Shown piece by piece: positions 37,395 to 57,974 of a stretch of 64,000 nucleotides of DNA (position 1 is the first letter of the stretch; each line of letters starts with the position of its first letter). Origin of the DNA: Pedomonas mirosovicensis (GTDB lineage Bacteria; Pseudomonadota; Alphaproteobacteria; Sphingomonadales; Sphingomonadaceae). The position numbers and the translations under genes are program-made. The DNA is taken from NCBI RefSeq assembly GCF_022569295.1, contig NZ_JAKFIA010000001.1:201001-265000 (forward strand). Reading direction: 5' to 3'. Below the pieces are notes generated by a model. It was not told the origin of the DNA and ran no database searches. It worked only from the letters and a program-made list of their open reading frames with translations.

Positions 37395-37885
37395 GGTCAT
37401 GCGAGGGGGCCGCCCCTCGCGCCCCCATTCGTTTGATCGGGCCGTGCGCGGGATGACGGGCGCGCCCTCTGGATAAGTTGTCTGGACAAGCGGGAATTGA
37501 ACGGGCCGCACCCAATGATGGCCCATGGAGCCTCGTCTCAAATCCCGCGCCTCTCTAAACTTGAATGAGTTTAAGGAGCGTTCGCTCAACATTCGGGGTC
37601 AGGCGCGGCCCTTTTCAGCCCACGGGGCAAACGGGACGAGACTTCACGCCCAGATGCCCCGTAAAGCCCCGTAGAGGCCCCTTACAGCGCCAAAACAGAC
37701 CTGCCCGCTACCACCCTAGCCGAGATAGGCAAAAACCTCTCTACGGGCGTTTTAACCCCATTAGCGGCGATTTGCCTGTTTGGATAAAAATCAAACAAAC
37801 TTTTATCCAGAACGCCCCGGAAACGCGGCTCGTTAAAACCACTGGGAGGTGCAGGAGGGGCAAGCCCCTCCTGCAAAAAAAGAAA
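37395..37885. repeat. Extragenic composite repeat, copy F, with a 350-bp internal expansion
   Basis: Left hairpin GCGAGGGG / CCCCTCGC at 37401-37420 followed by GCCCCCATTCGTTT and the core GGGCCGTGCGCGG. The right end is GGGAGGTGCAGGAGGGG / CCCCTCCTGC at about 37845-37874, then AAAAAAAG. The roughly 350 bases between contain no convincing gene and are richer in A+T than the neighbouring genes. This covers the 500-base gap before gloB. Confidence 0.65.
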
Positions 37886-40005: not shown

Positions 40006-40110
40006 GGCCCGAGGCCGACTTGCCACCCGGCGGAACAGGCGCTGCCAGCACCCGTTCCGCTGAATAAGCGCGCAAGATTCGCGTCACGTTCAGGCAAGCG
40101 GAGAGTTGTC

Positions 40111-41052
40111 ATGGCGAACACGCCAAAAGACTGGAGCAGCAGCGGCCAGCCCCCGGTCAATACGACGGGGAACGAGCCGGCCGAAAGCAAGGGCCAGAAG
40201 CAGGCAAGGAAGGAGGCCTTCCGCAACCAGGAGGAGGCGCGGGAGTCCGAGGCCAAGTGGTTCGTGCCCGAGCCGCGCGAGGAAGCCTCCACCGATCTTC
40301 CCGAAACGCCGACCCAGCCCTACAGCAACACCAACCTCCAACAGGGCGAGGGGCACCCGTCCGCGCTGGCGGCGGGCGGAGCAAGCGATACCGGCGACAA
40401 GAGCCGCAACATCGAGACCAGCCGCAATGCCGACCGGCTGGAGCCGGGGCAGGAGGCCAACCGCGGCATCGGGGCCGACCCCGACCTCATCCAGAACCGC
40501 CACGCCGAGGCGCGCGACGTCACCCACCTGGGCTCCGCCCCCTATCAGGGCACGGGAGAAGGCAAAACCCCCGGCGCGGGGCTGGAGCCGGGCGAAGGCA
40601 CAGGCACGCAGGCAGGCTTTGGCGGCCAGCCGCGCCAGACCCAGCACGCTGGAGCCCATGAAGGCGAACGCCTGCGCGAAAGCGAGGCGGAGCGCGACGC
40701 CAGCCGCCAGCCAGGCGCAACCAGCGGCATGGCCCCGGCCGATCAGCTGGGCACGCGCGATCAGGGCCACCCTGGCCGCACCGCCAAGGGCGAACGCCCG
40801 CGCGGCACGCAGGACCTGCCCCTGCCCCAGGGCAGCCGCGAGACCGGCAAGGATGCCGCCGAGGCCGGCGGCTACGGCGCGGGCGGCAAGGGCACGCGCC
40901 AGTCCGCCGAGAGCCCCGAGGACATGCGCGACCGCCAGGCCCGCGAAGCCGGCGCGGACACCCGCGGCTTTGAAAAACAGAAAGCCTCCGAAGGCCCCAA
41001 CGCCAAGCAAACCCTCAAGCGCGGCGCCGGCGACGATACATCAAGGCACTAG
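40111..41052 (+). CDS. Large disordered Gly/Glu/Ala/Arg-rich protein
   Basis: 313 residues without a single hydrophobic segment, and very rich in Gly, Glu, Ala, Arg and Gln. GGAGAG lies about 8 nt upstream of the ATG. Repeated phrases such as 'HEGERLRESEAERDASRQ' and 'REAGADTRGFEKQKASEG' recall stress-associated or LEA-like hydrophilic proteins, but no named family is clear. A competing frame is also open, as expected in GC-rich DNA; this frame is preferred for its start site and its acidic/basic balance. Confidence 0.6.
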   Translation: MANTPKDWSSSGQPPVNTTGNEPAESKGQKQARKEAFRNQEEARESEAKWFVPEPREEASTDLPETPTQPYSNTNLQQGEGHPSALAAGGASDTGDKSRNIETSRNADRLEPGQEANRGIGADPDLIQNRHAEARDVTHLGSAPYQGTGEGKTPGAGLEPGEGTGTQAGFGGQPRQTQHAGAHEGERLRESEAERDASRQPGATSGMAPADQLGTRDQGHPGRTAKGERPRGTQDLPLPQGSRETGKDAAEAGGYGAGGKGTRQSAESPEDMRDRQAREAGADTRGFEKQKASEGPNAKQTLKRGAGDDTSRH

Positions 41053-41228
41053 AGCAGCTCTCGAGCAGGGCGGACCGCCCTGCGGCTAGGAAAGTGCGAC
41101 CACAGGAACTTGAGAAGCCCCGGTCTGATGCACTCGGATCGGGGCTCTAATAAGCGCGCTCTGTCAGTTATTTTTACAATAATTTCAATAAATTATCCGC
41201 AAACCATTGAATAAACGGCGAGGCCATT

Positions 41229-41246
41229 TCGGCACGGGATTTGCCT
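41229..41246 (+). promoter_or_regulatory. Sigma-54 type promoter before PEP-CTERM gene
   Basis: CGGCACG-GGAT-TTGC: GG at 41231-41232 and GC at 41243-41244, exactly 12 nt apart, matching the sigma-54 consensus TGGCACG-N4-TTGC except for the first base. It is 56 nt before the GTG start. The 246-base region from 41053 is AT-rich upstream, suitable for an enhancer-binding activator. Confidence 0.75.
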
Positions 41247-41298
41247 GAGGAAGCGGCACGAACCAGCAACGTGTCATTTACAGCCAGGAGATCAGGCC

Positions 41299-42159
41299 GT
41301 GACGAAGTGGAGAAAGGGCGTGCTCGCCGCCTTGGGATGCATGGCGTTCGGCGGGGCGGCGGAGGCGGCCGTGCTGTACGGCGTCACCGGCGACGGCTCG
41401 GCGACGCCGGAAAGCCTGTTCACCATCGACACGTCGAACGCGGCAGCCACCTTCTTCATGGTGCTCGGCAACGGCGGTGACGGGGAGACCATCGCCTACA
41501 ATCCGGCCGATGGCCTGATGTACCACGCCTCCGGCATCAACAACGGCGACCGCTTCTGGGAGGGCATCAATCTCAACACCAAAACCATCGTGTTCTCGAA
41601 CCAGTTCACCGGGCCGAACGTGGACGATGAAACCCTCGCCATGACCTACAACCCCGGCACCGGGCGGTTTCTGGTGACGGACCGGGACGACGAGTTCTTC
41701 GACACCACCCCGGCGGGCGTCGCCACCGATATCGGCGGTGTGGAGAACAATATGAAAGGGCTCGCCTTCGTCGGCGACACGCTCTATGGCGCGGAGGTGG
41801 GCCAGGAGACGGCGACCGACGAATTGCATGTCCTCGACCCGGCGACCGGCGCAACGCTCTCGACCGTTTCGGTTACCCTGCCCGGCTTCGAAGTGTTCGG
41901 CCTCAATGGCCTTGCGACCGATCCGGACACGGGCGAGCTGTGGGGCCTCATCCGCGTTGTGAGCGACGACGGCAGCTTCACCCGCCATCTGGCCCTAATC
42001 GACCCTGTGACCGGCGAGGCAACCTCCTCCGGCCTGCTGGCCGAGAACTTCGCGGGCATCGCCTTCGTCCCCAGCGCCGTTCCCGAGCCCGCCGCCCTCG
42101 GCCTCCTCGGGCTGGGCGTGCTGGGCCTTGCCTCCCTTCGCCGCCGCAGAGCGGCATAG
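41299..42159 (+). CDS. PEP-CTERM protein with DUF4394-like propeller
   Basis: 286 residues from the GTG at 41299 (AGGAG at 41286-41290). Signal peptide at about 1-23 ('VLAALGCMAFGGAAEAA'). The body has beta-propeller-like repeats ('SLFTIDTSNAAATFF', 'GETIAYNPADGLMYH', 'MKGLAFVGDTLYGAEVGQ'). The C-terminus is a full PEP-CTERM sorting signal: 'VPEPAALGLLGLGVLGLASL' then RRRR. Such proteins are sorted by exosortase and usually linked to exopolysaccharide. No exosortase gene is in the window. Confidence 0.9.
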   Translation: MTKWRKGVLAALGCMAFGGAAEAAVLYGVTGDGSATPESLFTIDTSNAAATFFMVLGNGGDGETIAYNPADGLMYHASGINNGDRFWEGINLNTKTIVFSNQFTGPNVDDETLAMTYNPGTGRFLVTDRDDEFFDTTPAGVATDIGGVENNMKGLAFVGDTLYGAEVGQETATDELHVLDPATGATLSTVSVTLPGFEVFGLNGLATDPDTGELWGLIRVVSDDGSFTRHLALIDPVTGEATSSGLLAENFAGIAFVPSAVPEPAALGLLGLGVLGLASLRRRRAA

Positions 42160-42274
42160 GCCGAGGACCATTCCACGCCAGAAACAGGCCATCGCGCCAT
42201 CCCAGGTCTTCGCCCAAGCCTGCCCATGAGATAGGATCAGCCGCCGGTGGAATTGTTTGGCTTGGGAGGCAGAC

Positions 42275-42676
42275 ATGGAGCAGCGCACTGCAACCTGCCG
42301 CTGCGGGCAGCTTCAGGCGACCTGCAAAGGCGAGCCCATCCGCGTTTCGGTCTGCCACTGCCTGGAGTGCCAGAAGCGGAGCGGCAGCAGCTTTGGGGCG
42401 CAAGCGCGATGGCCGGAGGCTCAGGTGACAATCACCGGCCGGGCCAAGACCTGGCAGCGCGCGGCGGACAGCGGCCGGAAAGCCACCTACCGGTTCTGCC
42501 CCGATTGCGGCTCGACGATCGCCTATACCAACGAAGCCTATCCCGGTGTCGTCGCGGTGCCCATCGGCGCGTTCGCAGACCCCCTGTTTCCCTCGCCAAA
42601 GTTTTCGGTCTACGAACACCGCAAGCACCCTTGGGTAGCCATACTGGGCGACGAGGTTGAACGCTCCGCCACGTAG
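42275..42676 (+). CDS. GFA-family (CENP-V/GFA) zinc-binding protein
   Basis: 133 residues from the ATG at 42275 (GGGAGG upstream). Cysteine pattern of the GFA fold: 'CRCGQLQATCKG', 'CHCLECQKRSGSSFG', then 'FCPDCGSTIAY'. Family members include glutathione-dependent formaldehyde-activating enzymes, but most are of unknown role. Single gene. Confidence 0.88.
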   Translation: MEQRTATCRCGQLQATCKGEPIRVSVCHCLECQKRSGSSFGAQARWPEAQVTITGRAKTWQRAADSGRKATYRFCPDCGSTIAYTNEAYPGVVAVPIGAFADPLFPSPKFSVYEHRKHPWVAILGDEVERSAT

Positions 42677-42721
42677 CGGGACCGTACACCCAAGCCCTTA
42701 CCCGCCGTGCGCGGCGGCGGC

Positions 42722-43492
42722 TCAGTTGCGGGCGGCGGCTTGCCGGCGAAAGCAGGCGGGCAGGCCAAGGAGGAAGACCAGCAAGGCCAGCGGCAGCGCG
42801 GCCTGGTTCCCGAATGTGTGGAAGCCGATGGCTCCGGCGGTTGCGCCGCAGAAGAAGGCGAGGAACAATAGGCTCAGGAGGCGCAGTTTGGCGCGGTTGG
42901 CGATGACGGGCGGAGAGACGGCCGTATCGCGGTTCCAGTAGAGCAGCTTGCCCAGTTCGATGCCGATATCGGTGACGATGCCGGTGACGTGGGTCGTGCG
43001 GATGCGCGCGCCGGAGATCTTGGTGATGATGGCGTTCTGCAAGCCCATGAGCAAGCAGAGGAGGGCGATGGTGGACGCGATGCCCCCTTCCGGACCGCTG
43101 CCCCTGCTGCTGAGGGCGAACACCAGCAGAAGGGCGGCCTCGATGAGCAGCGGCAGGGCGTAATAGGTCCGGATGCCTGCGCGACGGCCCCAGTTGACGA
43201 TAAAGGCGCAGGTGGCGGCGCCGGTGACGAACGACGCCAGGGCGGTAAGGCCGATGAGAGCGGCGGAGACGACCCCGAAGGCCACATCCTGCGCCAGGGC
43301 GGAGACGAGGCCGGTCATATGCGAGGTGTAGTGGCCGACCGCCAGAAGCCCGCCCGCGTTGACGGCACCCGCCACGAAGGCCAGCACGCAGCCGAGCTGC
43401 ATGTCGGCCCTGTCGCTGCGTGTCTCGCCGGTCAGGGCGTTGAGCCACCGAAGCCCGGCGGCAAGGGGTGCATTGCGGCTTGCAGAACGCAT
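42722..43492 (-). CDS. YoaK/DUF1275 membrane protein
   Basis: 256 residues from the ATG at 43492; the frame extends upstream without support. Six or so hydrophobic helices. Family motifs: 'CVLAFVAGAVNAGGLLAVGH', 'YTSHMTG', 'LLMGLQNAIITKISGARIRT', 'THVTGIVTDIGIELG'. DUF1275 proteins are predicted transporters; substrate unknown. Confidence 0.88.
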   Translation of the reverse strand: MRSASRNAPLAAGLRWLNALTGETRSDRADMQLGCVLAFVAGAVNAGGLLAVGHYTSHMTGLVSALAQDVAFGVVSAALIGLTALASFVTGAATCAFIVNWGRRAGIRTYYALPLLIEAALLLVFALSSRGSGPEGGIASTIALLCLLMGLQNAIITKISGARIRTTHVTGIVTDIGIELGKLLYWNRDTAVSPPVIANRAKLRLLSLLFLAFFCGATAGAIGFHTFGNQAALPLALLVFLLGLPACFRRQAAARN

Positions 43493-43649
43493 GGGATGCC
43501 TTGCTCGGAAACCTGCAGCGGGAAGATCCGGAACACTGCATGAACACCATAGCAGGACACGGCAGCCGGAGCACCTGCCAACAAGCCGCACCGAACGCAG
43601 CCGTTAAGCGGCACGGCCTTCCCGGCTGGGCGCGTTGGTGAAAGCCTGA

Positions 43650-43735
43650 TTTTCGCCAGGAGAGCCCCGTGCGCGAAGGCGCACAAACGAGTAGCTCCCT
43701 CCTGGCAACCTCCCGTTTTGTTTATTGGGGCGTAT
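43650..43735. repeat. Extragenic repeat, left half (copy G), before the ZnuD-like gene
   Basis: TTTTCGCCAGGAG...CTCCTGGC (about 43650-43707) followed by AACCTCCCGTTTTGTTTATT, the left-half layout of the family. Fragments of the middle stem (TGAAACGCCTGG) follow at about 43764-43776. The matching right half is at about 46385-46450, after the TonB receptor. Confidence 0.6.
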
Positions 43736-43897
43736 GATTCAGGAGGACCGAAGCCTTATCTTTTGAAACGCCTGGTTTGCGCCCAAGTCGGCCGTTCCAG
43801 TCGCGTTCAATCGGCCTCGAAAACTGCCCTAGTTTCCTGCCTGCACCCGCTTTTGGCTCGGAATTTACCCAGTGCCGCTGGCTCCGCGTGAAAGCGG

Positions 43898-43926
43898 TTG
43901 ACTATATGATATATCATCACATAAAC
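43898..43926 (+). promoter_or_regulatory. Promoter with Zur/Fur-like palindrome before TonB receptor
   Basis: TTGACT (43898-43903), 17-nt spacer, ATAAAC (43921-43926). A perfect 12-bp palindrome ATGATATATCAT (43906-43917) fills the spacer, the position of a classical repressor operator. Given the zinc-receptor gene downstream, Zur is the likely repressor; this is inference. Confidence 0.65.
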
Positions 43927-43958
43927 GCTTGGCATTCTACTCAGTAGGGGGGAATACC

Positions 43959-46229
43959 TTGATTGTTGTCAGGACCCGGCGGGCGATCGCCCGCCTATCG
44001 TCGCTCGTCTCCACTCTCGCGTTTATGCCCGCAGTCGCCTGGGCCCAGGAACCCGTTCCCGAGCAGGAAACGCATCAGGCATCCAAGGCCGAGCGCATCA
44101 TCGTAACCGGCCAGTCTCTTTCCGCACCCAAGAAGGTAACGCCGCTACCTGTGGCGGTGCTCAGCGGGGAAGATCTCGCCCATCGTCAGCGCGGCACGCT
44201 CGGCGAAACGCTGGAAGGGATGCCCGGCGTCCATATGGACAATTTTGGCGCGGGAGCCGCGCGCCCGGTCATACGAGGGCAGACGCTGCCGCGCATCGAA
44301 ATCCTCACTGATGGGGCTAATGTATTCGATGCCGCGTCTGTCTCACCCGACCATGCGATCGTCACCGATCCTTTGCTGCTCGATGCAATTGAGGTTCAGC
44401 GTGGCCCGGCTGCAATCCGCTATGGCGGCAGCGCGATGAACGGCGCAATCAACCTGATCGACAGCAAGGTACCCAAGGCCTTGCCCGAGGGCGGCATTAC
44501 GGGGGCGGCGGAGGCCCGCTACGGCACCGGCGATGACGAGAAGACGATCGTCGGCCGGGTGACTGCCGGGATGGGCCAGCTCGCCATTCATGCGGAAGGG
44601 TCGCGCCGTCGCACGGATGACTACGATGTTCCCGATGGCTATGGCAGCGACAAGCTCAAGGACTCCTTCGCCGACGGTTCGAGCTACGGTTTCGGCGCAT
44701 CCTTCATCGTCGACAACGGCTATATCGGCGCAGCCTATACGCGGCAGGATGCCGAATACGGCCTGCCGGGCCACAGCCATCTGAACGGGGTGTGCCATAC
44801 CCATGGGCTCGACCTGCACTGCGAGGCGCACGGCGGCTTCGACGATCCGTTCGGATCGCCAGATAGTCACACCGCCTACATCGATCTTCGCAGCGAGCGT
44901 GTCGATCTCCGCTCGGATTTCACGGATCCGCTGCCAGGCTTCGAGAATGTCAGGATCAGAGGCTCCTACACAGATTATGTGCATTCCGAGATTGACGGGG
45001 AGCTCCTGTTCACACGCTACACCAACGAAGTCTGGGACGGGCGTCTGGAGCTAACCCACAAGCCATTGCTGGGCTTCACCGGCACCTTTGGCGTGCAATA
45101 TACCGATGGAACGTTCAGCGGCATCAATGTCGATGACTTGCATGTGCCGTTTCCCGACAACGCCTATGGCTGGGATGGAGTCCCTTATTACCAGACCGAG
45201 AATATCGGTATCTTCCTGAGCGAGCGCCGCTCGTTCGGGGCGGTCGATCTTGAATTTGCCGCCCGCAAGGACTGGCGCAAGATCGACGTTACTCCGCCTA
45301 CCTTCCGCGTCAGTCTTTCGCCTCAATATGAAGAACTCTTTGCCGAATTCTACGGCCCCGATTGGCGCCAGGTGATCGAAGACGACTACACCGAAAGTTT
45401 CCGCGAGCGGAATCCCGGCGCGAAACACGATCCCTTCTCAGCGTCGTTCGGGGCGACCTGGAACATTGCAGGCGGTTACGCGGCAGCGCTGTCGCTCGGC
45501 CACACCGAACGCGCGCCGAACGTCCGCGAGCTCTATGCTCGGGGGAACAATCTCGCCACCAACAGCTATGAGCTCGGACTTGCCTCGAGCAACCCGCTCC
45601 TCGAGGAAGAAGGTCTCTCTGCCGAGGATGTTCTGGAAGTCACCGACTCGATCAACCTGACCTTCCGCAAGACGGGCGGGCCGCTCGAATTCGAGGTCGG
45701 CCTGTTTTACCAGGATATCGAAGACTATGTTTTCGCCCGGTTGATCGAGACTGAAACAGAGAGCGGGGTCCCGCACAATTTTCTTGTCTACACGGCGGCT
45801 GAGGCGAAATTTGCCGGGATCGACGGTCAGGTGAGTTACCAGTTCACGCCGGAAGGGCGCGTAACCCTCTTTGGCGACTATGTCGACGCTGATCTCGAGA
45901 GCGAAGACGACAATCTGCCGCGCATTCCGCCGGCACGGCTCGGCGCGCGGTTCAATTGGGCGAGTGGACCCGTCTCAGCGGATGTGGAGTATTATCACAC
46001 CTTCGGGCAGGACAAGGTGGCGTCCTACGAAACGGACACCAACGGCTACGACATGCTCAACGCCACCATTGCCTATCGCATCGACATCGGGAGCGGAAAC
46101 GACCTGGAACTCTATGCGCGGGCCACGAACCTCACCAACGAGTTGGCTTACGTGCATACCTCCTTCGTTAAGGACCAATCGCCGCTGCGCGGGCGCAACG
46201 TCGTCTTCGGACTGCGGCACAAGTTCTGA
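43959..46229 (+). CDS. ZnuD-like TonB-dependent receptor (zinc)
   Basis: 756 residues from the TTG at 43959, with AGGGGGG 7 nt upstream; another TTG at 43929 lacks a site. Signal peptide to about residue 32 ('FMPAVAWAQE'). Plug domain with 'MPGVHMDNFGAGAARPVIRG' and 'LDAIEVQRGPAAIRYGGSAM'. A His/Cys-rich loop at residues about 270-288 ('GHSHLNGVCHTHGLDLHC') is the zinc-capturing loop known from ZnuD. The barrel ends 'RGRNVVFGLRHKF' with a terminal Phe. Base composition looks less GC-biased than its neighbours, and half-repeats flank it, suggesting acquisition. Confidence 0.85.
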   Translation: MIVVRTRRAIARLSSLVSTLAFMPAVAWAQEPVPEQETHQASKAERIIVTGQSLSAPKKVTPLPVAVLSGEDLAHRQRGTLGETLEGMPGVHMDNFGAGAARPVIRGQTLPRIEILTDGANVFDAASVSPDHAIVTDPLLLDAIEVQRGPAAIRYGGSAMNGAINLIDSKVPKALPEGGITGAAEARYGTGDDEKTIVGRVTAGMGQLAIHAEGSRRRTDDYDVPDGYGSDKLKDSFADGSSYGFGASFIVDNGYIGAAYTRQDAEYGLPGHSHLNGVCHTHGLDLHCEAHGGFDDPFGSPDSHTAYIDLRSERVDLRSDFTDPLPGFENVRIRGSYTDYVHSEIDGELLFTRYTNEVWDGRLELTHKPLLGFTGTFGVQYTDGTFSGINVDDLHVPFPDNAYGWDGVPYYQTENIGIFLSERRSFGAVDLEFAARKDWRKIDVTPPTFRVSLSPQYEELFAEFYGPDWRQVIEDDYTESFRERNPGAKHDPFSASFGATWNIAGGYAAALSLGHTERAPNVRELYARGNNLATNSYELGLASSNPLLEEEGLSAEDVLEVTDSINLTFRKTGGPLEFEVGLFYQDIEDYVFARLIETETESGVPHNFLVYTAAEAKFAGIDGQVSYQFTPEGRVTLFGDYVDADLESEDDNLPRIPPARLGARFNWASGPVSADVEYYHTFGQDKVASYETDTNGYDMLNATIAYRIDIGSGNDLELYARATNLTNELAYVHTSFVKDQSPLRGRNVVFGLRHKF

Positions 46230-46384
46230 CCTCTGCATGACGGCCGGCGACGTCCGGCCGTCATCTCGTATCCGAGAGCAGATTGAGCATAAGGTTGATG
46301 TCAGATCTCGGCGTCTCCACTCTTAAATCCGCCGTTCCACTCCCAACCACTTCGGGCAGCGCATTGAGGTGCCTCGCCGTGAAC

Positions 46385-46460
46385 AAGCGCGGCCCGAAAA
46401 ACAAATAGGGGTCACAGGGGGATTAAGATCCCCCTGCGTTTAAAAAAACCCCATTAAACC
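46385..46460. repeat. Extragenic repeat, right half (copy H), after the ZnuD-like gene
   Basis: GCGCGGCCCG, AAACAAATAGGGGT, hairpin CAGGGGGAT / ATCCCCCTG (46415-46436), then TTTAAAAAAACCCC. This is the right-half layout, inverted with respect to the half at 43650. The rest of the gap 46230-46478 shows nothing else. Confidence 0.6.
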
Positions 46461-46478
46461 AACCTGGAGGAAAACCCC

Positions 46479-48272
46479 TCACCCGCCGCGATAGAGCGCT
46501 TCCAGCTGCGGGCCGTAGGTGGCTTTGATCTTGTGGCGGCGGATTTTCAGCGTCGGGGTCATCTGCTCATTTTCGACGGTGAAGGGCTCGCTTGCCAACG
46601 AGATGCGGCGCACCTTTTCGGTGACGGAGAGGCGGGCGTTGATGCGATCAACGGCGTCCATCACCGCGCGGCAGAAGCCGGGGTTCTTTTTGAGCGCGGC
46701 GAGGTCGGCGTTCGGTTCGCCGTGGCGGGATGCCCAGCCGTGGGCCCATTCCGGATCGGGCACGATGAGGCCGACGAGGTAGGGCTTGCGGTCGCCGTAG
46801 ACCATAGCCTGGTGAATTTCCGGCTCCAGGCACAGCATGCCTTCCACCCGCTGCGGGCTGACGTTCTCGCCCTTGTCGAGGACGATGATGTCCTTCTTGC
46901 GGTCGGTGATGACGATGTGCCCGTCCGCATCGATGTGGCCGACGTCGCCGGTGTGGAGCCAGCCGTCCTTGATGGTGCGCTCGGTTTCGTCCGGATTGCG
47001 CCAGTAGCCGTGGGTGACGAGCTCGCCGCGCACGAGGATTTCGCCGTCCTCCGCAATTCTCACCTCGGTGTTGGCGAGCGGCGGGCCGACCGTGTGCATC
47101 TTGATCTTCCGGCTCGGCCGGTTGCAGGAGATGATCGGCCCGGCCTCGGTCTGGCCGTAGCCCTGGAGCAGGGTGAAGCCGAGCGCGGCGAAGAACAGCC
47201 CCACCTCCGGGTTGAGCGGCGCGCCGCCCGCCACCATCGCCTTCAGCCGCCCGCCGAAGCGCGCCTGCACCTTGCTCCGCAGGGTGGCGTCCAGCAGCCG
47301 GTCCGCCGGCCAGCCCCACCACGGGAGCTGCCCGGTTTCGGCGCGGGTTTTCTCCAGGTGCAGGGCGAGGTCCAGCATCCGGGTGGCAAAGGCCCCCTGC
47401 TTCTCGATGGTTTTGGTCATGCGGGCGCGCAGCACCTCGAACAGGCGCGGCACCACAACCATGATGGTGGGGTGCACCTCCTCGATGTTGGCCGCCAGCT
47501 TGTCCAGCCCCTCGGCGTAGTAGATCTCCGCCCCCAGCCAGATGGGCAGGAACTGGCCGCCGGTGTGCTCGTAGGCGTGGGACAGCGGCAGGAAGGAGAG
47601 GAACACGTCGTCCGTCTTGGCGAAGTCGTCGCGCACGATATGCCCCGCCCCCGAGACATTGTGCAGGATCGCCCCATGGTGGTGCTTCACCCCGCGCGGC
47701 GCGCCGCCGGTGCCCGAGGTGTAGATGAGGCAGGCCGTGTCCTCCCGCTTGAAGGTGGCCCAGCTGCGCGCCTCGGCAACCGTGGTGGTGCTGGCTGCGA
47801 TCAGCGTCTGCCAGTCGTAGAGGTGCGCCACGGAGGACTGGCCGATTTTCACCGGCTCCATGGCGATGACATGGCAGCAGCACTCGGTCTGGTGCACGGC
47901 GGGCAGAAGCAACCGCGCCAGCTTCGCGCCCGAGACGAACACCGCCACCGCGCCCGAGTTTTCCAGAATGTGCAGGTGGTCCCGCTCGGTGTTGCTGGTA
48001 TAGGCCGGCACGGTGATCGCGCCCGCCGTCATGATGGCGAGGTCCGCGATCAGCCATTCCGGCCGGTTTTCGGAAACAAGGGCGATGCGCTCGCCCGGCT
48101 TGATGCCGATGGCCTTCAGCGCCCCCGCCAGCCGCGCCACCTGCTCCGCCGTCTCGCGCCATGTCAGCGACTGCCAGTGCCCTTCCCGCTTGGTCCACAG
48201 GAAGGGCTTGTCGCCCAGACGTTCCGCCTGGTCGAAGAACATTTCGACCACGCTGTTCCAATCTTCACGCAT
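46479..48272 (-). CDS. Long-chain fatty acyl-CoA synthetase / AMP-binding protein
   Basis: 597 residues from the ATG at 48272 (GTG at 48287 possible). Adenylate-forming enzyme: P-loop 'CLIYTSGTGGAPRGVKHHHG', 'VVPRLFEVLRARM', 'LLQGYGQTEAGPII', 'DGWLHTGDVGHIDADGHIVI', 'DRKKDIIVLDKGENVSPQRV' and C-terminal 'TPTLKIRRHKIKATYG' with the catalytic Lys. Activates fatty acids to acyl-CoA. The P-loop has Gly-Gly where Thr-Gly is usual. Confidence 0.93.
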   Translation of the reverse strand: MREDWNSVVEMFFDQAERLGDKPFLWTKREGHWQSLTWRETAEQVARLAGALKAIGIKPGERIALVSENRPEWLIADLAIMTAGAITVPAYTSNTERDHLHILENSGAVAVFVSGAKLARLLLPAVHQTECCCHVIAMEPVKIGQSSVAHLYDWQTLIAASTTTVAEARSWATFKREDTACLIYTSGTGGAPRGVKHHHGAILHNVSGAGHIVRDDFAKTDDVFLSFLPLSHAYEHTGGQFLPIWLGAEIYYAEGLDKLAANIEEVHPTIMVVVPRLFEVLRARMTKTIEKQGAFATRMLDLALHLEKTRAETGQLPWWGWPADRLLDATLRSKVQARFGGRLKAMVAGGAPLNPEVGLFFAALGFTLLQGYGQTEAGPIISCNRPSRKIKMHTVGPPLANTEVRIAEDGEILVRGELVTHGYWRNPDETERTIKDGWLHTGDVGHIDADGHIVITDRKKDIIVLDKGENVSPQRVEGMLCLEPEIHQAMVYGDRKPYLVGLIVPDPEWAHGWASRHGEPNADLAALKKNPGFCRAVMDAVDRINARLSVTEKVRRISLASEPFTVENEQMTPTLKIRRHKIKATYGPQLEALYRGG

Positions 48273-48403
48273 GTTCACGCCTGCCACTCTCCCCCCGGCT
48301 ACGTTTGCTATTTAAAGCAATATACTCAAACGCATGAGATGAACGCGCGAACAGCGCGAGGGATGACCCCCCGGCTGCTGTCTTATCGTTTTTGGTTGAG
48401 GCC

Positions 48404-50179: not shown

Positions 50180-50442
50180 CGTCTCCTTTCTGCCTGCCCC
50201 GGCACACGCACACCCCGGCAGTAACGCAACATGCGCCAAGCTGTAGCATATTCGGGGCATACGCAAAGCCGTGCCGCTGGCGAAATCAGGGCCGCGTGAA
50301 ATATTCTTCCACGGCTTGTCGGCCAAATCGCTCGTCTTACCGCACATCCGCCCGGAAACGGCGGCTCGCCACGGCTCGCGACTTGCCAGGGCCAGCCGTG
50401 GCTTTAGGCTCCCGCCATTCCATGTTCGAACGGGGGATTTTT

Positions 50443-52278
50443 ATGCGTTTGACACTCTTACGTTCCGTCGCCATCGCCGCGCTGGCGTTCTCGGCCGCGC
50501 CCGCGCTGGCGCAAGCCCAAGCCGCCGCCCCGGCAGCGGCGCAGAACCAAGACGAGACCACCCGCTTCAAGGCTTTCCTGGAGCAGGTATGGCAGGCTGA
50601 CCTCGCCTCCTCGCCGCAGATGCAGACCTACCTTGGCGTCAAGAAGGACTACGGCAAGTGGGACGACGCCACCGAAGCCGCGCAGATCGACGACTACGCC
50701 CGCGCTCTCAAGGCGCTGGCCACCATGCGCGAGACCTTCGATTACAATAAGCTGTCGCCGGAGGCCCAGCTGTCGTGGCGGGTGTTCGAGTCCGTGGCGC
50801 GCAGCAACGAGAACGCCTTCCGCTTCCGCAACTACGGCTACATCTTCGACCAAATGAACGGTGAGCAGAGCGGCATCCCCGCCTTCCTCATCAACATGCA
50901 CCGGGTCGACACCGTAAGCGATGCAGAGAATTACATCTCGCGCCTGAACGGCGTCGCGCCGCTGATGGACACGCTGATGGCCGAGGCCGTGAAGCGGGAG
51001 AAGCTGGGCATCCTGCCGCCCAAGTGGGTGTTCCCCTACGTGATTTCGGACGCGAAGAACGTCATCACCGGCGCACCGTTCACGCAAGGCGCAGACTCGG
51101 CGCTGATGGCCGACTTCCGCGCCAAGGTGAAGAAGCTGAAGCTCCCCGCCGACCAGGAAAAGGCGCTCATTGGCAAGGCGCAGGCCGCCCTCACCGGCTC
51201 GGTGAAGCCGGCCTATGAGAAGCTGATCGCCCTGATGCAGCAGCAGGAAGCCCGCGCGCCTACGCAAGACGGCGTGTGGCGCCTGCCCAACGGCGACAAG
51301 TACTACGCCGAGCGGCTGGCCTACTACACCACCACCGACATGACGGCCGACGAGATCCACAATTTCGGCCTTTCCGAGATGGACCGCATCCACAAGGAGA
51401 TGGAGGCCATCGCCCGCAAGGTGGGCTTCAAGGGCACGCTGAAGGAGTTCATGCAGGCGGTCCAGAACGACCCGAAGCAGTTCTACCCGAACACCGACGC
51501 GGGCCGCGAGGCCTACATCAAGGAGGCCACCGCCGTCATCGACGCCATGCGCGCCAAGCTGCCGGGCTACTTCGGCGTGCTGCCCAAGGCGGACATGATC
51601 GTGAAGCGGGTGGAACCGTTCCGCGAGAAATCGGCGGGCAAGGCCTTCTACCAGAGCCCCGCGCCGGACGGCTCGCGCCCCGGCACCTACTACGCCAACC
51701 TCTACGACATGAAGGACATGCCCAAGTTCCAGCTTGAAGCGCTGGCCTACCACGAGGGCATTCCGGGCCACCACCTGCAGCGCGCCATCTCCGGCGAGCT
51801 GAAGGGCATTCCCAACTTCCAGAAGTACGGCCGCTTCACCGCCTACACCGAAGGCTGGGGCCTCTACACCGAACTGCTGGCCAAGGAGATGGGAGCCTAT
51901 CAGGACCCCTACGCCGACTTCGGCCGCCTGTCGCAGGAGCTGTGGCGCGCCGCCCGCCTCGTGGTGGACACCGGCATCCACTACAAGAAGTGGAGCCGCG
52001 AGCAGGCGATCCAGTACCTCCTCGACAACACGCCCAACTCCGAGGGCGAGGCCCGCAAGGCCATCGAGCGGTACATCGTCTACCCCGGCCAGGCGACCGC
52101 CTACCTCATCGGCAAGACCGAGATCCTGCGCGCCCGCGAAGCCGCCAAGGCGGAACTGGGCGACAAGTTCGACATCCGCGCCTTCCACGACGTGGTGCTG
52201 GGCTCCGGCCCGGTTCCGCTCGATATCATGAAGGAAAATGTCCAGAACTGGGTGAAGCAGGTGAAGGCGCAGTCGTAA
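50443..52278 (+). CDS. DUF885 family zinc metallopeptidase-like protein, exported
   Basis: 611 residues from the ATG at 50443 (GGGGG at 50432-50436; an ATG at 50422 is possible). Signal peptide 'AIAALAFSAAPALAQAQA'. The zinc site 'ALAYHEGIPGHHLQRAISG' (HExxxH) and downstream 'FTAYTEGWGLYTELLAKEMG' are the DUF885 signature; 'YIVYPGQATAYLIGKTEIL' closes the domain. Probably a periplasmic peptidase. Confidence 0.93.
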   Translation: MRLTLLRSVAIAALAFSAAPALAQAQAAAPAAAQNQDETTRFKAFLEQVWQADLASSPQMQTYLGVKKDYGKWDDATEAAQIDDYARALKALATMRETFDYNKLSPEAQLSWRVFESVARSNENAFRFRNYGYIFDQMNGEQSGIPAFLINMHRVDTVSDAENYISRLNGVAPLMDTLMAEAVKREKLGILPPKWVFPYVISDAKNVITGAPFTQGADSALMADFRAKVKKLKLPADQEKALIGKAQAALTGSVKPAYEKLIALMQQQEARAPTQDGVWRLPNGDKYYAERLAYYTTTDMTADEIHNFGLSEMDRIHKEMEAIARKVGFKGTLKEFMQAVQNDPKQFYPNTDAGREAYIKEATAVIDAMRAKLPGYFGVLPKADMIVKRVEPFREKSAGKAFYQSPAPDGSRPGTYYANLYDMKDMPKFQLEALAYHEGIPGHHLQRAISGELKGIPNFQKYGRFTAYTEGWGLYTELLAKEMGAYQDPYADFGRLSQELWRAARLVVDTGIHYKKWSREQAIQYLLDNTPNSEGEARKAIERYIVYPGQATAYLIGKTEILRAREAAKAELGDKFDIRAFHDVVLGSGPVPLDIMKENVQNWVKQVKAQS

Positions 52279-52308
52279 GGCTGGCCTGCCTCAAGCCTGA
52301 AAGAGAAG

Positions 52309-52338
52309 GGCGCCGGATCACCCCGGCGCCTTTTTTTT
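52309..52338 (+). terminator. Intrinsic terminator after DUF885 gene
   Basis: GGCGCCGG (52309-52316), loop ATCACC, CCGGCGCC (52323-52330), TTTTTTTT (52331-52338). Confidence 0.92.
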
Positions 52339-52345
52339 GCCCGCA

Positions 52346-52373
52346 TGTCACATTCCGCCGGTGCCGCCTCGTC
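52346..52373 (+). promoter_or_regulatory. ECF41-type promoter
   Basis: TGTCACA (52346-52352), 17-nt spacer, CGTC (52370-52373). This matches the -35 and -10 signature described for ECF41 sigma factors, whose gene is the second in the operon downstream. An autoregulatory circuit is likely. Leader of about 30 nt to the ATG at 52408. Confidence 0.75.
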
Positions 52374-52407
52374 ATGTCATCGCAACCAAAGACAAGGAAC
52401 CGATACC

Positions 52408-52869
52408 ATGACCGCCAAGCTTGAACCGTTCACCGCCGCCCCCGCCCTGATGAAAAGCTGGATGGCGACCTCGATCGCCGTTGCCAAGAGCCTGGAGCCC
52501 AGCCTGATCGAGCTGGTGAAGATCCGCTCCTCGCAGATCAACGGCTGCGCCAACTGCATCAACATGCACACCGTTGAGGCCCGGGAAAAGGGCGAGACCG
52601 AGCAGCGCATCTACCTGCTTTCCGCCTGGCGCGAGGCCCCCTGCTACACCGACCGCGAGCGCGCCGCCCTCGCCTGGACGGAGAGCTTGACGCGCCTTTC
52701 CGAAGCGCACACCCATGAAGCGGCCTACGAAACGCTCAAGGCCCACTTCACCGAGGAGGAGCAGGTGAACCTCACCCTGATGATCAACGTCATCAACGGC
52801 TGGAACCGCATCGCCATCGGCTTCGGCCTGTGGATCGACCCCGCCGCGGCCAAGTCGGCCGCCGCCTGA
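52408..52869 (+). CDS. Carboxymuconolactone decarboxylase / AhpD-like protein
   Basis: 153 residues from the ATG at 52408 (AAGGAA upstream). The CxxC motif is in 'SSQINGCANCINMHTVEARE', typical of AhpD-like peroxidases; 'RERAALAWTESLTRLSE' and 'NVINGWNRIAIGFG' complete the fold. A stop/start overlap (TGATG) couples it to the ECF41 sigma gene, the classical partner arrangement (carboxymuconolactone decarboxylase-like, oxidoreductase or epimerase genes). Confidence 0.93.
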   Translation: MTAKLEPFTAAPALMKSWMATSIAVAKSLEPSLIELVKIRSSQINGCANCINMHTVEAREKGETEQRIYLLSAWREAPCYTDRERAALAWTESLTRLSEAHTHEAAYETLKAHFTEEEQVNLTLMINVINGWNRIAIGFGLWIDPAAAKSAAA

Positions 52870-53732
52870 TGCACGGGGCCGAACACCTTGAGGACGCAGC
52901 GGCGAGCTTCGACCCGCTGCGTCCCCGCCTCATCCGCGTCGCCTACCGGATGCTCGGCTCGGTCGCGGACGCCGAGGACGTGGTGCAGGAGGCCTTCATC
53001 CGCTGGATGGGGGCCGACCGCGCCGCGGTTCTCGAGCCCGAAGCCTTCCTGCGCCGCACGGTGACCCGTCTCTGCCTCGACCAGCTGAAGTCTGCCCGCC
53101 GCCAGCGCGAGACCTACGCGGGCCCCTGGCTTCCCGAGCCGATCGTCGAGGAGGCAGAGGAGGCGGACGACGTGACCCTGCCCCTGATGCTGGCGCTGGA
53201 GCGGCTGTCCCCGCTCGAGCGCGCCGCCTTCCTGCTCCACGACATCTTCGGCCTCGGCTTCGAGGAGGTGGCGGCGACGATCGAGCGCGACCCCGCCGCC
53301 TGCCGCCAGCTCGCCAGCCGCGCGCGCACCCACGTGCGCGCCGCGCGCCCGCGCTTCGAGGTGGAGAAGGAACGCGGCCTCGAACTCGCCAACGCCTTCT
53401 TCGCCGCCTCCCGCACCGGGGACATGACCGCGCTCGGCGCGATGCTGGCAAGCGACGTCAGCCTCCACGCCGATGGCGGCGGCAAGCGCTCGGCCGCACC
53501 GCAGCCCATTCTCGGCTATACCCATGTGATGCAGGTGCACAAGGCGATCGGCGCGCTGTTCAGGCTGCACGGCTCGCAGCTGGTGCGCGTCGGCTTCATC
53601 AACGGCCTGCCCGGCTTCGTCACCCGCGAGGCGGACGGCGAGCTGCAAACCACCGCGCTCGACATCGAGGGCGGCAAGATCGCCGCCATCTATGTGGTGC
53701 GCAATCCGGACAAGCTCCGGCACCTGAACTAG
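52869..53732 (+). CDS. ECF41-type RNA polymerase sigma factor with fused SnoaL-like domain
   Basis: 287 residues. Region 2 'DPLRPRLIRVAYRMLGSVAD', 'AEDVVQEAFIRW'; region 4 'LERLSPLERAAFLLHDIFGL' with 'SRARTHVRAARPRF'. The C-terminal ~110 residues form a SnoaL-like extension with the ECF41 hallmark 'DGGGKRSAAPQPILG'. The extension replaces a separate anti-sigma factor and controls activity. No anti-sigma gene is nearby, as expected. Confidence 0.94.
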   Translation: MHGAEHLEDAAASFDPLRPRLIRVAYRMLGSVADAEDVVQEAFIRWMGADRAAVLEPEAFLRRTVTRLCLDQLKSARRQRETYAGPWLPEPIVEEAEEADDVTLPLMLALERLSPLERAAFLLHDIFGLGFEEVAATIERDPAACRQLASRARTHVRAARPRFEVEKERGLELANAFFAASRTGDMTALGAMLASDVSLHADGGGKRSAAPQPILGYTHVMQVHKAIGALFRLHGSQLVRVGFINGLPGFVTREADGELQTTALDIEGGKIAAIYVVRNPDKLRHLN

Positions 53733-53743
53733 AAACCCTGCCG

Positions 53744-53768
53744 GGCGGGGCGGAGGGCCCCGCCGTTT
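53744..53768. terminator. Bidirectional hairpin between ECF41 and antiporter genes
   Basis: GGCGGGGC (53744-53751), loop GGAGG, GCCCCGCC (53757-53764), then GTTTCC. It separates two convergent genes. Confidence 0.65.
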
Positions 53769-53770
53769 CC

Positions 53771-55540
53771 TTATTCCCGCTCCCCAGGCTTCTCCCCGGC
53801 GGGCTCGGTGATGATGCGCTCCCGCGCGGTGCGGATGTCGCCGGATTCAACCTGCGCCTTGAGCCGATGCCGGTCGCTGGCGCGATACAGGGCCTCGGCG
53901 CGGTTGATGCCCTCGGCGGAGACGCCCATTTCCTCCAGCGCCTGCCGTGCCATCACCACGGCGGATTCCAGCACCTCGCGCACGATGCCGTTCATGGGCG
54001 CATCCTTCAGCTGGATGACGGTGCGGCGGTCGAAGGCGCGCACGTAGAGGGCGGCGCGCGGGAAGGCCTGATGGATTTCGTGGATCATCTCCGGGGTTAG
54101 CTGGTCGCCGTCCATGCAGAACAGGATCAGCTCCGCCTCTGCCGCTCCGGCCTGCCGCAGCAGGTCCAGCCGGGTGCCATCGCCGAAGTAGACCTTCGCG
54201 CCGAACTCCCCGGCCACGTCGATCATCTCGATGTCCGTGTCGATGAGCGTGACCGGAATGTTGCTCGCCATCAGCATCTGGGCGACGGTCTGGCCGAAGC
54301 GGCCATAGCCGATGACGATGGCGTTGGCCCCTTCCGCGCGCGGTCCCTCGCGCTCCTCCGCCTTGTGAATTGGCTCCTCGCGCAGCCTGCGGGTCGCCGC
54401 CATCAGGAAGGGCGTGGTCGCCATCGAAAGCGTCACGATCGCGCTGAACAGGCTTGCGGCCTCGGGCGCGATCAGCCACGCGTTCTGCGCCTGGGCGAAC
54501 AGCACGAAGCCGAATTCGCCCCCCTGGCTGAGCAACACGCCCAGCGCCAGCGCCGACCGCCACGTCATGCGACAGGCGAGCCCGATCAGCAGGATCACGA
54601 CCGTCTTCACCGCGATCAGCATGGCGGCCATCCCCGCCACGAACAGCGGGCGCTCGGCGATGGCGCCGAGGTCCAGCATCATGCCGACGGCAAGGAAGAA
54701 CAGGCCGAGGAGGATGGAGCGGAACGGCTCCACGTCCGCCTCCAGTTCGTGGCGGTAGGGCGAGTCCGCCAGCACCACGCCCGCGACGAACGCGCCGAGC
54801 GCGGTCGAGAGGCCCAGCGCCTCCATCAGCGCCGCCGCCGCGATCACCGTGAACAGCGCGGCGACGACGAACATCTCCCGCTCGCCCAGGTTGCCGATCA
54901 GCCGGAACAGCGGGCGGATGAGGAACCGCCCGGCGGCGAACAGCCCCGCCACCGCGCCCACCGTGTAGAGCGCCAGCAGCCAGCCCGGCGGGCCGCCGGC
55001 ATCCGCCGGGTTGCGGCTGAGCGCGGCGACGATGGTGATGAGCGGGATGATGGAGAGATCCTGAAACAGGAGGATGGCGAAGGCCCGCTCGCCAAACGGC
55101 GTCTTGAGGCGGCCGGAGGATTGCAGCATCGGCAGCACCTGCGCGGTGGAGGACAGCGCCAGCGGCAGCCCCAGCGCCAGCGCCGCCGCCGCGGAGAAGC
55201 CGGTGGACAGGGCGATGACGCCCGCCACCGCAAGGCCGCACGCCGCCACCTGCAACAGCCCGAGCCCGAGGATATCCCGGCGCATCCGCCACAGCCGCGC
55301 CGGGCTCAGCTCCAGCCCCACGATGAACAGCAGCAGCGTGATGCCGAGCTCGGCGATGCCCAGCTTGCTTTCCGCATCGCCCACCAGTCCCAGCACCTGC
55401 GGGCCGACCACGGCCCCGGCGACCAGATACCCCAGGGTCGCGCCCAGCCCCAGCCGCCGGAACAGCAGCACGAACACCAACGCGAAGCCGAGCAGCAGGA
55501 AGCCGTCGTGAAGCAGTAGAGTGGGCCCTGTTTCGTGCAT
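53771..55540 (-). CDS. CPA2-type monovalent cation:proton antiporter (KefB/KefC-like)
   Basis: 589 residues from the ATG at 55540; a longer frame lacks similarity. About 12 hydrophobic helices in residues 1-380 ('LGATLGYLVAGAVVGPQVLG', 'LPLALSSTAQVLPML', 'FLAVGMMLDLGAIAERPLFV'). Then a TrkA-N nucleotide-binding domain: 'AIVIGYGRFGQTVAQMLMAS', 'LIDTDIEMIDVAGEFGAKVY'. KefB/C proteins release K+ in exchange for H+ under electrophile stress; here glyoxalase genes are elsewhere, so that link is not shown. Confidence 0.93.
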   Translation of the reverse strand: MHETGPTLLLHDGFLLLGFALVFVLLFRRLGLGATLGYLVAGAVVGPQVLGLVGDAESKLGIAELGITLLLFIVGLELSPARLWRMRRDILGLGLLQVAACGLAVAGVIALSTGFSAAAALALGLPLALSSTAQVLPMLQSSGRLKTPFGERAFAILLFQDLSIIPLITIVAALSRNPADAGGPPGWLLALYTVGAVAGLFAAGRFLIRPLFRLIGNLGEREMFVVAALFTVIAAAALMEALGLSTALGAFVAGVVLADSPYRHELEADVEPFRSILLGLFFLAVGMMLDLGAIAERPLFVAGMAAMLIAVKTVVILLIGLACRMTWRSALALGVLLSQGGEFGFVLFAQAQNAWLIAPEAASLFSAIVTLSMATTPFLMAATRRLREEPIHKAEEREGPRAEGANAIVIGYGRFGQTVAQMLMASNIPVTLIDTDIEMIDVAGEFGAKVYFGDGTRLDLLRQAGAAEAELILFCMDGDQLTPEMIHEIHQAFPRAALYVRAFDRRTVIQLKDAPMNGIVREVLESAVVMARQALEEMGVSAEGINRAEALYRASDRHRLKAQVESGDIRTARERIITEPAGEKPGERE

Positions 55541-55805
55541 CTGGCCAGCCGATCCGGAAGAGAAAAGGTTGTGTTCCCGAGGGTTGGGGCACCGGGCTCC
55601 CAACCCCTTCACGCGATAGCCCGGCGGGTGACGCAAGCCTAGACCCTTTTCACCGCCCGCACCACGCCGGCCGCGCCGACCGATGCCCGAAAGGCGCTGG
55701 AACCAATCCCCCGGCAGGCGGGTTTGTCAGCAAATCTTGACACTTCCGGCCGGGCAGCACCGCCCCCGGTCGGCGATGATGCTGATATTCCACGGAAACC
55801 CATTC

Positions 55806-55821
55806 TGGCGCGGAACGTGCT
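55806..55821 (+). promoter_or_regulatory. Sigma-54-like promoter before the PEP-CTERM GDSL gene
   Basis: TGGCGCG-GAAC-GTGCT: GG at 55807-55808 and GC at 55819-55820, 12 nt apart. Two positions differ from the consensus TGGCACG-N4-TTGCT. Distance to the ATG is 53 nt, close to the 56 nt at the other PEP-CTERM gene. Confidence 0.65.
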
Positions 55822-55872
55822 TGGCCTGTGGCCTGCGACACCATCACCAACCGCTCATTCGGGAGGACGATC

Positions 55873-56877
55873 ATGGCACGGTGGCCGACGATGGAACGAC
55901 TGACCCTTCTTTCCCTGTTCGCCCTGGCTGCGGCGGGGGCGAGCGCGCCCGCGGCCGCCCTGCCCGCCTTCAGCGACATCATCGTCTTCGGCGACAGCCT
56001 CACCGACACGGGCAACGCACATCTGGGCGCACCCCAGCAGGGCATACCGGACCCCGCGCCGCCAGCCCTCGGCTACTTCAACGGCCGCTTCTCCAACGGC
56101 CCCATGTGGACGGACTACCTGAGCCAAAGCCTCGGCTTCGGCCTCCTTGAGCCGCGCCTGGCGGGCGGCACCAACTATTCCGTGGGCGGCGCGCGGGCCG
56201 TGCCCAACGCCGACCCCTCGCTGGACTTCCCCCAGCAGCTTGAGTTCTTCGCCAACGACCTCGGCGGCGGCCCGGCCGACCCCAACGCGCTCTACGTGGT
56301 CAACTTCGGCGGCAACGATGCGCGGGATATCCTCCACGCCGCCGCCGACGCGCCCGACCCCGCCGCCGTCATCCCCACCATCGCGGCGGGCATCGAGGCG
56401 CTGAGCCAGCTTGGGGCCCGCAACATTCTAGTGGGCGGCATTCCCAACATCGGCCTGCAACCCGAGCAGAACGGCGCGGAAGCGGAAGGGCGCGCCCTGT
56501 CGCTGGCCCTCGACGCCGCGCTGGAGGCCGCCCTTGCCGACCTGACGCTGGCGGCGGGCACGGAAATCTTCACCTTCGACTACTTCGCCGTCACCGACGC
56601 CATCGAGCAGAACCCCACCGCCTTCGGCTTCACCCAGCCGCTCGACATCCCCTGCCTCGCCGTGCCCGACGCCTCGCCCGAGTGCCCCGGCTTCCTATTC
56701 TTCGACCCGCTCCACCCCAGCACGGCCGCCCATCGGCTGATCGCCGACGCGGCCCTCGCCGCCCTCAACGACACCACCGACGTGCCCGAACCGGCAACCC
56801 TTGCGCTCCTGGGGCTGGGGGTGGCTGGCATCGGCACCGCCCGCAGGCGCAGCGGCGGCAGCAGGGTGCGGGCGTAA
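55873..56877 (+). CDS. PEP-CTERM GDSL/SGNH-type esterase
   Basis: 334 residues from the ATG at 55873 (GGGAGGA upstream). Signal peptide 'LLSLFALAAAGASAPAAA'. SGNH blocks: 'IIVFGDSLTDTGNAH' (catalytic Ser), Gly in the 'GGTNYSVGGAR' region, 'VNFGGNDARDIL' (Asn), and 'FFDPLHPSTAAHRLIADAAL' (Asp/His). C-terminal sorting signal 'VPEPATLALLGLGVAGIGTA' then RRR. An esterase or lipase displayed or released via exosortase. No exosortase is in the window. Confidence 0.93.
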   Translation: MARWPTMERLTLLSLFALAAAGASAPAAALPAFSDIIVFGDSLTDTGNAHLGAPQQGIPDPAPPALGYFNGRFSNGPMWTDYLSQSLGFGLLEPRLAGGTNYSVGGARAVPNADPSLDFPQQLEFFANDLGGGPADPNALYVVNFGGNDARDILHAAADAPDPAAVIPTIAAGIEALSQLGARNILVGGIPNIGLQPEQNGAEAEGRALSLALDAALEAALADLTLAAGTEIFTFDYFAVTDAIEQNPTAFGFTQPLDIPCLAVPDASPECPGFLFFDPLHPSTAAHRLIADAALAALNDTTDVPEPATLALLGLGVAGIGTARRRSGGSRVRA

Positions 56878-56906
56878 AATCCGCAACCGTCCCAGCCTAC
56901 CAAAAA

Positions 56907-56940
56907 GGGCACCGGCTCATCCGCCGGTGCCCTTTGTTTT
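56907..56940 (+). terminator. Intrinsic terminator after GDSL gene
   Basis: GGGCACCGGC (56907-56916), loop TCATCC, GCCGGTGCCC (56923-56932), TTTGTTTT. Confidence 0.9.
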
Positions 56941-56947
56941 TATTCAA

Positions 56948-56986
56948 GATTTTGCAGGGGGCTCACCCCCTGCACCCCTTCGTCAT
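56948..56986. repeat. Extragenic repeat, left half (copy I)
   Basis: TTTTGCAGGGGG...CCCCCTGC (hairpin 56954-56973) followed by ACCCCTTCGTC, a shortened left-half layout. The opposing right half is at about 58640-58690, beyond the orphan gene and vapBC. Confidence 0.55.
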
Positions 56987-57028
56987 TAGGCTAGGCCTTC
57001 GTAAGCCGAAGCGAGCCATCGCTAACCA

Positions 57029-57778: not shown

Positions 57779-57944
57779 TTTTCTGCCCCCAACTTAAACC
57801 CAAAATTTTAACGCAGCCCATCACGTAGAGAATGCCCCCTGCGGGCTCAATCAATTTACCCAATTATAAAATATAATAAATGTGTGTCCGCACATTTGCT
57901 TGATACGTGCTGCCCCCGTTGTTCATTGAGCGCCACTCCGCCTT

Positions 57945-57974
57945 AGTGTATATACGTGTAGATACCTCGACGGA
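57945..57974 (+). promoter_or_regulatory. vapBC operator/promoter region
   Basis: Two near-identical 8-mers GTATATAC (57948-57955) and GTAGATAC (57958-57965), one helical turn apart, the first self-complementary. They lie just before CGGAG (57970-57974) and the vapB ATG. A binding site for the VapB(C) autorepressor is likely. Confidence 0.5.

Follow-up and report, generated by a model that had tools for sequence, protein, structure and literature searches.

Proteins of the REP-associated tyrosine transposase (RAYT) group are thought to spread repeats of the repetitive extragenic palindromic (REP) type. According to two sources (PMC3733652, PMC3116915), the REPs, bacterial interspersed mosaic elements (BIMEs) and REP doublets forming hairpins (REPINs) of enterobacteria and Pseudomonas are short GC-rich hairpins, present in high copy number at extragenic positions and often directly behind genes. 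They occur mostly as inverted doublets, the singles being more degenerate, and fall into subfamilies with compensating changes in the stem. All these traits are shared by a repeat of Pedomonas mirosovicensis, here named R1. In the stretch of 64,000 nucleotides analysed (the window, C1:201001-265000 of a genome whose 3.63 Mb form two contigs, C1 and C2), a gene for a ZnuD-like receptor is bracketed by two opposed, inward-facing halves of this high-copy hairpin repeat.

R1 departs from the REP, BIME and REPIN systems in several respects. In the 141 halves whose stem was recognised, the 8 nt upstream of it contained neither GTAG nor CGTC in any case; the CGTC tag, recorded in PMC3733652 for REP families of alphaproteobacteria, including two Sphingomonas or Sphingobium species, is missing from R1. 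No match to the RAYT domain (Y1_Tnp, PF01797) was obtained in this genome, which is 97.9% complete, while controls matched in 5 of 14 genomes, and a RAYT-driven REP was ruled out on that ground. Each half-unit moreover carries a conserved tail and a second, inner GC-rich stem, and pairs mostly join unlike halves. Miniature inverted-repeat transposable elements (MITEs) and repeats similar to the enterobacterial repetitive intergenic consensus (ERIC) resemble R1 in being short and non-coding, with terminal inverted repeats and many copies, but R1 differs in its strong placement behind stop codons. As regards MITEs, a target-site duplication was looked for at the ZnuD interval only, where a 9-bp word at chance level was found, and no parent insertion sequence came out of the transposase search, which covered PF01797.

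Rfam, at gathering thresholds, reported a single tRNA in the window and nothing else, and R1 was accordingly dropped as a candidate for a known RNA family. Its description was not found in the literature on alphaproteobacterial intergenic, REP/RAYT/BIME and MITE-like repeats, within a coverage that left most subscription papers outside. A covariance model of the half-unit gave no match in 58 other relatives (stricter filters, best 91 candidates per genome) or in 297 other genomes of the family (stricter filters, best 18 candidates per genome); in the search of its own genome the best 150 candidates were scored. R1 can be described as a palindromic repeat of the REP/BIME-like kind, restricted to one lineage and, among the genomes searched, found in this one alone.

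The locus comprises the following features, with gene calls that are ORF-based (open reading frame) and crude:

42722 to 43591, minus strand: DUF1275 gene (Pfam), 5' end toward the left half; start uncertain, an internal ATG being possible
43650 to 43755, plus strand: left R1 half, degenerate, 22 bits, no partner half alongside
43898 to 43921, plus strand: predicted ZnuD promoter, TTGAC overlapping TATATGATATATCATCA, an imperfect, AT-rich palindrome that resembles a Zur box when compared with homologues
43959 to 46229, plus strand: ZnuD-like TonB-dependent zinc receptor, TTG start at 43959 (upstream TTG at 43929 possible)
46373 to 46443, minus strand: right R1 half, 37 bits, no partner half alongside
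46479 to 48287, minus strand: LACS-like AMP-binding ligase (Pfam), 3' end toward the right half

The preliminary description had placed opposed repeat halves at these sites, with just the receptor and its promoter in between, and profile scores together with a shuffle control bear this out: only ZnuD and its Zur-like promoter separate the two. In the left half, a long nested hairpin (about 43655-43706) is followed by ACCTCCC and then by GTTTTGTTTATTGGGGCG, which is T-rich and ends in GGGGCG; in the right half, read on the minus strand, the hairpin (about 46413-46438) is followed by ACCCCTATTTGTTTTTCGGGCCGCGC, both layouts being derived from sequence and fold. The outer end of the right half lies 35-41 bp past the LACS stop codon. 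The left half is flanked by two start codons, those of DUF1275 and ZnuD, and thus occupies a divergent gap. Both halves are degenerate and neither has a partner beside it: a profile Smith-Waterman search for weak partner halves gave best scores of 10.1 (shuffle mean 12.0) and 11.0 (shuffle mean 11.8). Strings resembling partners had been seen by eye, as if two decayed complete elements flanked ZnuD; this was rejected, their profile scores being at the shuffle level. The hairpin of the left half (43655-43706) belongs to a subclass of R1 hairpins whose loop contains a nested stem, GTGCGC-GCGCAC.

To the hairpin of an R1 half-unit (for example GCAGGAGGG-CTTG-CCCTCCTGC) are added ACCTCCC as a tail, ATTCGTTTTATC, which is conserved, and GGGCCGCGCCC, with which a second GC-rich stem begins. 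The final scan covered 1.867 Mb of C1 and 0.175 Mb of C2, in stretches partly chosen, the window among them, and partly spread over the gaps of C1, rather than drawn at random. A threshold of 10 bits was used for the scan, the geometry of tandem gaps, the count of gap types and the permutation, of 11 bits for the uniform-placement model and of 14 bits for the count of stop distances. In these 2.04 Mb, 275 halves were found, corresponding to 109 inward-facing pairs and 57 unpaired halves; 65 of the 275 have no facing partner within 900 bp. The same profiles gave 280 matches of at least 9 bits in the real sequence and none in 2.04 Mb of Markov-shuffled sequence. Density was 14.5 halves per 100 kb on the sampled part of C1, 2.9 on that of C2 and 23.4 in the window. 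Short copies had been described as two opposed halves, and this holds: the outer span is 136-216 bp in 75 of the 109 pairs (typically about 165 bp), shorter in 5 and longer in 29, up to 2742 bp for the pair around ZnuD. Hairpins folded for three halves were stable, with z values of -2.5 to -4.9. An ordinary element of the window is:

27313 to 27478, no strand assigned: R1 element with two opposed halves

Paired halves mostly belong to unlike hairpin classes (AB or BA in 44, BB in 30 and AA in 3 of 77 pairs), as though the left and right ends of an element were distinct. Similarity between the halves of a pair was tried as a test for the ZnuD halves and turned out to be uninformative, because mates within an element resemble each other slightly less than random halves do (0.675 vs 0.704, over the hairpin).

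The R1 tail also mirrors the 3' arm of the hairpin, in arrangements such as CCCTCC-TGCA-CCTCCC, CCCTC-TGCA-CTCCC and CCCC-TGCA-CCCC (for example in the half at 27313-27378). Of the 136 halves parsed, 93 show the mirror, whereas permutation gave 39.6 on average and 54 at most; of 76 distinct types, 37 show it (18.5 on average and 30 at most by permutation). A direct repeat fits 40 of the 136. The purine arm, the 3' arm and the tail could form a small pyrimidine-motif triplex, and the mirror may come from shared ancestry of the R1 classes.

The position of R1 relative to genes is far from uniform. The nearest outer gene edge is a same-strand stop for 190 and a start for 53 of the 243 halves scored for it. 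As many as 131 of these halves begin within 30 bp past a same-strand stop, and 155 within 60 bp, compared with 4% and 8% of random intergenic positions. Divergent gaps hold only 3 of the 156 elements located outside ORFs, though 21% of gaps are divergent (P~1e-12); 8 of 164 elements lie inside called ORFs. The stop-codon association and the scarcity in divergent gaps mark R1 as a 3'-end repeat, like REP elements. Among 63 singles examined, 49 follow a stop codon and 14 face a start, the left half at ZnuD included; that half is the sole divergent-gap single among 59.

The sequence at 43959-46229 is predicted to encode a ZnuD-like TonB-dependent receptor for zinc transport. It shows the Pfam Plug and barrel domains, and its best relative of solved structure is Neisseria ZnuD (4rdr, E=7.2e-88). 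The TTGAC and AT-rich imperfect palindrome upstream are common to at least 9 of 18 homologue loci, as read by eye. The palindrome at 43898-43921 does not match exactly the published Zur motif, given as GTTA-N5-TAAC in PMC4176598, and is considered a putative Zur box by comparison with the homologues. In its plug and barrel, its relation to Neisseria ZnuD and its Zur-box-like promoter, the gene resembles known Zur-regulated TonB-dependent receptors of the ZnuD type, the flanking R1 halves being the one oddity.

A deviating composition of the gene had been proposed, and this stands in part. Its GC content is 60.5%, against a mean of 66.4% for the 175 genes of at least 500 amino acids (1.1 percentile), and its third-position GC content (GC3) is at the 13.7 percentile, but codon-usage distance is ordinary, at the 63rd percentile of the same set. 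Near-full-length ZnuD of over 60% identity was found in 6 of 148 other family genomes (best 7 candidates scored per genome), and the closest named relative, at 72%, is from Microbulbifer, a gammaproteobacterium. In the ZnuD tree, gamma and beta homologues are scattered; five changes are needed, at least three of them forced by well-supported branches. ZnuD was probably gained horizontally from another bacterium.

In 16 relative loci containing LACS, GGT was near LACS in 10, and neither ZnuD nor DUF1275 was near it in any, at the cut-off used. One relative, G007, has a SIMPL gene 14 bp from LACS and lacks the block with ZnuD; relative to it, the window has an extra block at 40006-46478, with five genes (ZnuD, DUF1275 and three others). 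A search for conserved ZnuD neighbours was unproductive, since the shared ORFs seen among the best 60 at homologue loci lay on ZnuD itself. The preliminary description would have been contradicted by normal codon usage combined with conserved synteny; codon usage is ordinary, synteny is not conserved. It had attached the same weight to relatives having the gene and no halves. These do occur, no R1 match being present at any of the 22 homologue and 19 relative loci, and they decide nothing, because R1 was found in no relative searched.

Two origins had been suggested for the arrangement, and the insertion of the gene into a repeat is the better of them: the halves are partnerless, their geometry is that of a normal element and the gene is seemingly horizontal. 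With ZnuD removed, LACS and DUF1275 are in tandem, and the halves lie 35-41 bp behind the stop of the former and 59-104 bp from the called start of the latter, a distance possibly about 100 bp longer, the DUF1275 start being uncertain. In the 41 tandem-gap pairs, the stop distance is at most 100 bp in 36 and the start distance at most 150 bp in 29, and because the halves match this geometry once ZnuD is taken out, an R1 element that came first and was later split is favoured. In this view the element would once have lain between LACS and DUF1275, then a tandem pair, its halves placed past the LACS stop and on the side of the DUF1275 start, respectively. A horizontally acquired, putatively Zur-regulated ZnuD with its own promoter would then have inserted between the halves, leaving them 2.7 kb apart and decaying. 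We infer both the insertion and this order of events. Facing neighbours that are both single are in excess at 900-3000 bp, 4 being seen in the scanned part against 0.72 expected from label permutation (P=0.0035).

Several results weigh against such an insertion. At 2-3 kb alone, 1 facing couple of singles was seen against 0.36 expected (P=0.31), and at 900-5000 bp 4 against 1.65 (P=0.073). Uniform placement leads one to expect 0.99 inward-facing single-single pairs of 0.9-3 kb per whole genome, and a single half that faces a start codon is nothing unusual (14 of 63). No empty site was seen among the genomes compared, which include no second species of the genus and in none of which R1 was found. 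The block absent from G007 holds five genes, and the whole of it, rather than ZnuD alone, may have arrived. No target-site duplication was found at the ZnuD interval; the 9-bp word, the sole shared direct one and the only candidate, is at chance level (P=0.09 to 0.19). The left half is assigned to class A by best-fit profile but to class B by motif rule. Since the distance by itself is no proof, and lone start-facing halves are that frequent, the landing of ZnuD inside a pre-existing R1 element is held to be evenly balanced between right and wrong.

The right half could instead be the 3'-end element of LACS and the left half a separate, decayed single, with ZnuD merely lying between them. Such a coincidence is a serious possibility, though we lean away from it. 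It fits the high density of R1 on C1, and above all in the window, the abundance of singles, most of which follow a stop, the expectation under uniform placement of about one facing single-single pair of this size per genome, the absence of an excess in the 2-3 kb class and the degeneracy of both flanking halves. It accounts less well for the left half, the only divergent-gap single of 59, in a context nearly avoided by R1, and for the overall excess of the 900-3000 bp class.

Other wide pairs bear on the remaining explanations. Twelve facing pairs span at least 400 bp, and the gene caller itself placed genes within four of them. In seven the halves surround an ORF that is probably of accessory type, in two a second intergenic repeat, R2; two are without a clear gene and one is C1 623085-623532. 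The seven cargoes are ZnuD; a MazE-type antitoxin and a PIN-domain gene with an ORF of 249 amino acids; TetR_N with RibD_C; HNH; a PaaA2-type stability determinant; an ORF of 93 amino acids without Pfam match; and an acetyltransferase-like ORF, named by eye. Besides that at ZnuD, the gene-bearing pairs are at C1 143036-143532, 144935-146435, 257951-259684, 687888-688304, 954348-955037 and 2088170-2089315. Three further apparent wide pairs (C1 1626004-1628394, C2 6020-8683 and C1 2499099-2499917) proved on inspection to be neighbours of ordinary elements. The window contains the following:

37413 to 37877, no strand assigned: R1 pair around R2 (37628 to 37852)
56951 to 58684, no strand assigned: wide facing halves of 12 and 24 bits, the left one weak, enclosing the MazE-type antitoxin/PIN pair and the 249-amino-acid ORF
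57907 to 58221 and 58225 to 58623: MazE-type antitoxin and PIN-domain genes, a pair between the wide halves; the companion ORF of 249 amino acids has no Pfam match

R2 is a family of about 190 bp, seen at 37628-37852 of the window, at C1 315630-315853, 426964-427171 and 1875773-1875995, and at six more sites. Four of its 10 strong copies are between R1 halves, two just outside R1 pairs and four away from R1, in a searched set partly chosen near R1.

Conceivably, though this seems unlikely, R1 pairs, as palindromic doublets past stop codons, favour the arrival or uptake of accessory genes one at a time between their halves, so that an integron-free system of dispersed cassettes would result; the genes taken up in this way would be the zinc receptor, the toxin-antitoxin pair, HNH, TetR with RibD_C, the acetyltransferase and an orphan antitoxin. 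A more active role, in which the halves are the ends of a mobile or recombining unit carrying cassettes (ZnuD, toxin-antitoxin, HNH, TetR with RibD_C and others), is very doubtful. Consistent with it, 7 of the 12 widest pairs hold accessory-type ORFs, and the four R1 pairs that enclose R2 do so in similar positions and may be copies of one composite. R2, however, is also met apart from R1, 6 of its 10 strong copies not being enclosed by an R1 pair, and no gene cargo was met twice among the seven gene-bearing wide pairs of the scanned 2.04 Mb, where a movable unit would be expected at several sites. Compared with the halves of narrow pairs (median 34.0 bits, n=176), those that enclose gene cargoes have degenerated further (25.1, n=14; p=0.003), and PF01797, the one transposase family searched, gave no Y1/RAYT match. 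What G007 lacks reaches past the halves both at ZnuD and at TetR/RibD_C; at the latter site, the outer dehydrogenase of G007 lies 34 bp from a second glutathione-transferase-like gene, and the extra block is therefore larger than the interval between the halves. Given the unrepeated cargo, the degenerate halves, the missing PF01797 match and the size of the blocks that G007 lacks, the suggestion that pairs of halves mobilise or recombine cargo is not supported. In a further reading, likewise very doubtful, the half-units would be functional 3'-end or terminator signals placed by selection, facing each other around ZnuD only as a reflection of outer gene directions, as the strong stop-codon association, the convergent bias and the stable hairpins would suggest, but the left half follows no stop codon and no T-run comes directly after the hairpin. 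This last view can be combined with an insertion of ZnuD, being a rival only as to why the halves sit where they are.

A few observations concern other parts of the genome. About 8 kb (window 50348-58712) separates GGT from 58713-60074, two features directly adjacent in most family relatives examined, and for this reason the region appears rich in lineage-specific DNA. At 16341-16447 of the window, three head-to-tail 30-bp units, GGCCTCCGCCGCTTTGGCCACACCGATGGC, lie within a reading frame. C1 and C2 look terminally redundant, with the same element or gene at both ends and near-constant offsets:

C1 20265 and 2725659: redundant end positions
C2 6020 and 885781: redundant end positions
C2 18903 and 898658: redundant end positions

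Because of this redundancy, C1 and C2 may each represent a circular replicon whose ends overlap and differ slightly.

If ZnuD did land inside an R1 element, the locus would clearly exemplify how a nutrient receptor gained by horizontal transfer settles in a repeat at a harmless intergenic place. That accessory genes turned up repeatedly between wide halves deserves to be followed up. With a dense REP-like family in a single genome without a RAYT match, the spread of REP-like repeats without RAYT becomes directly testable.

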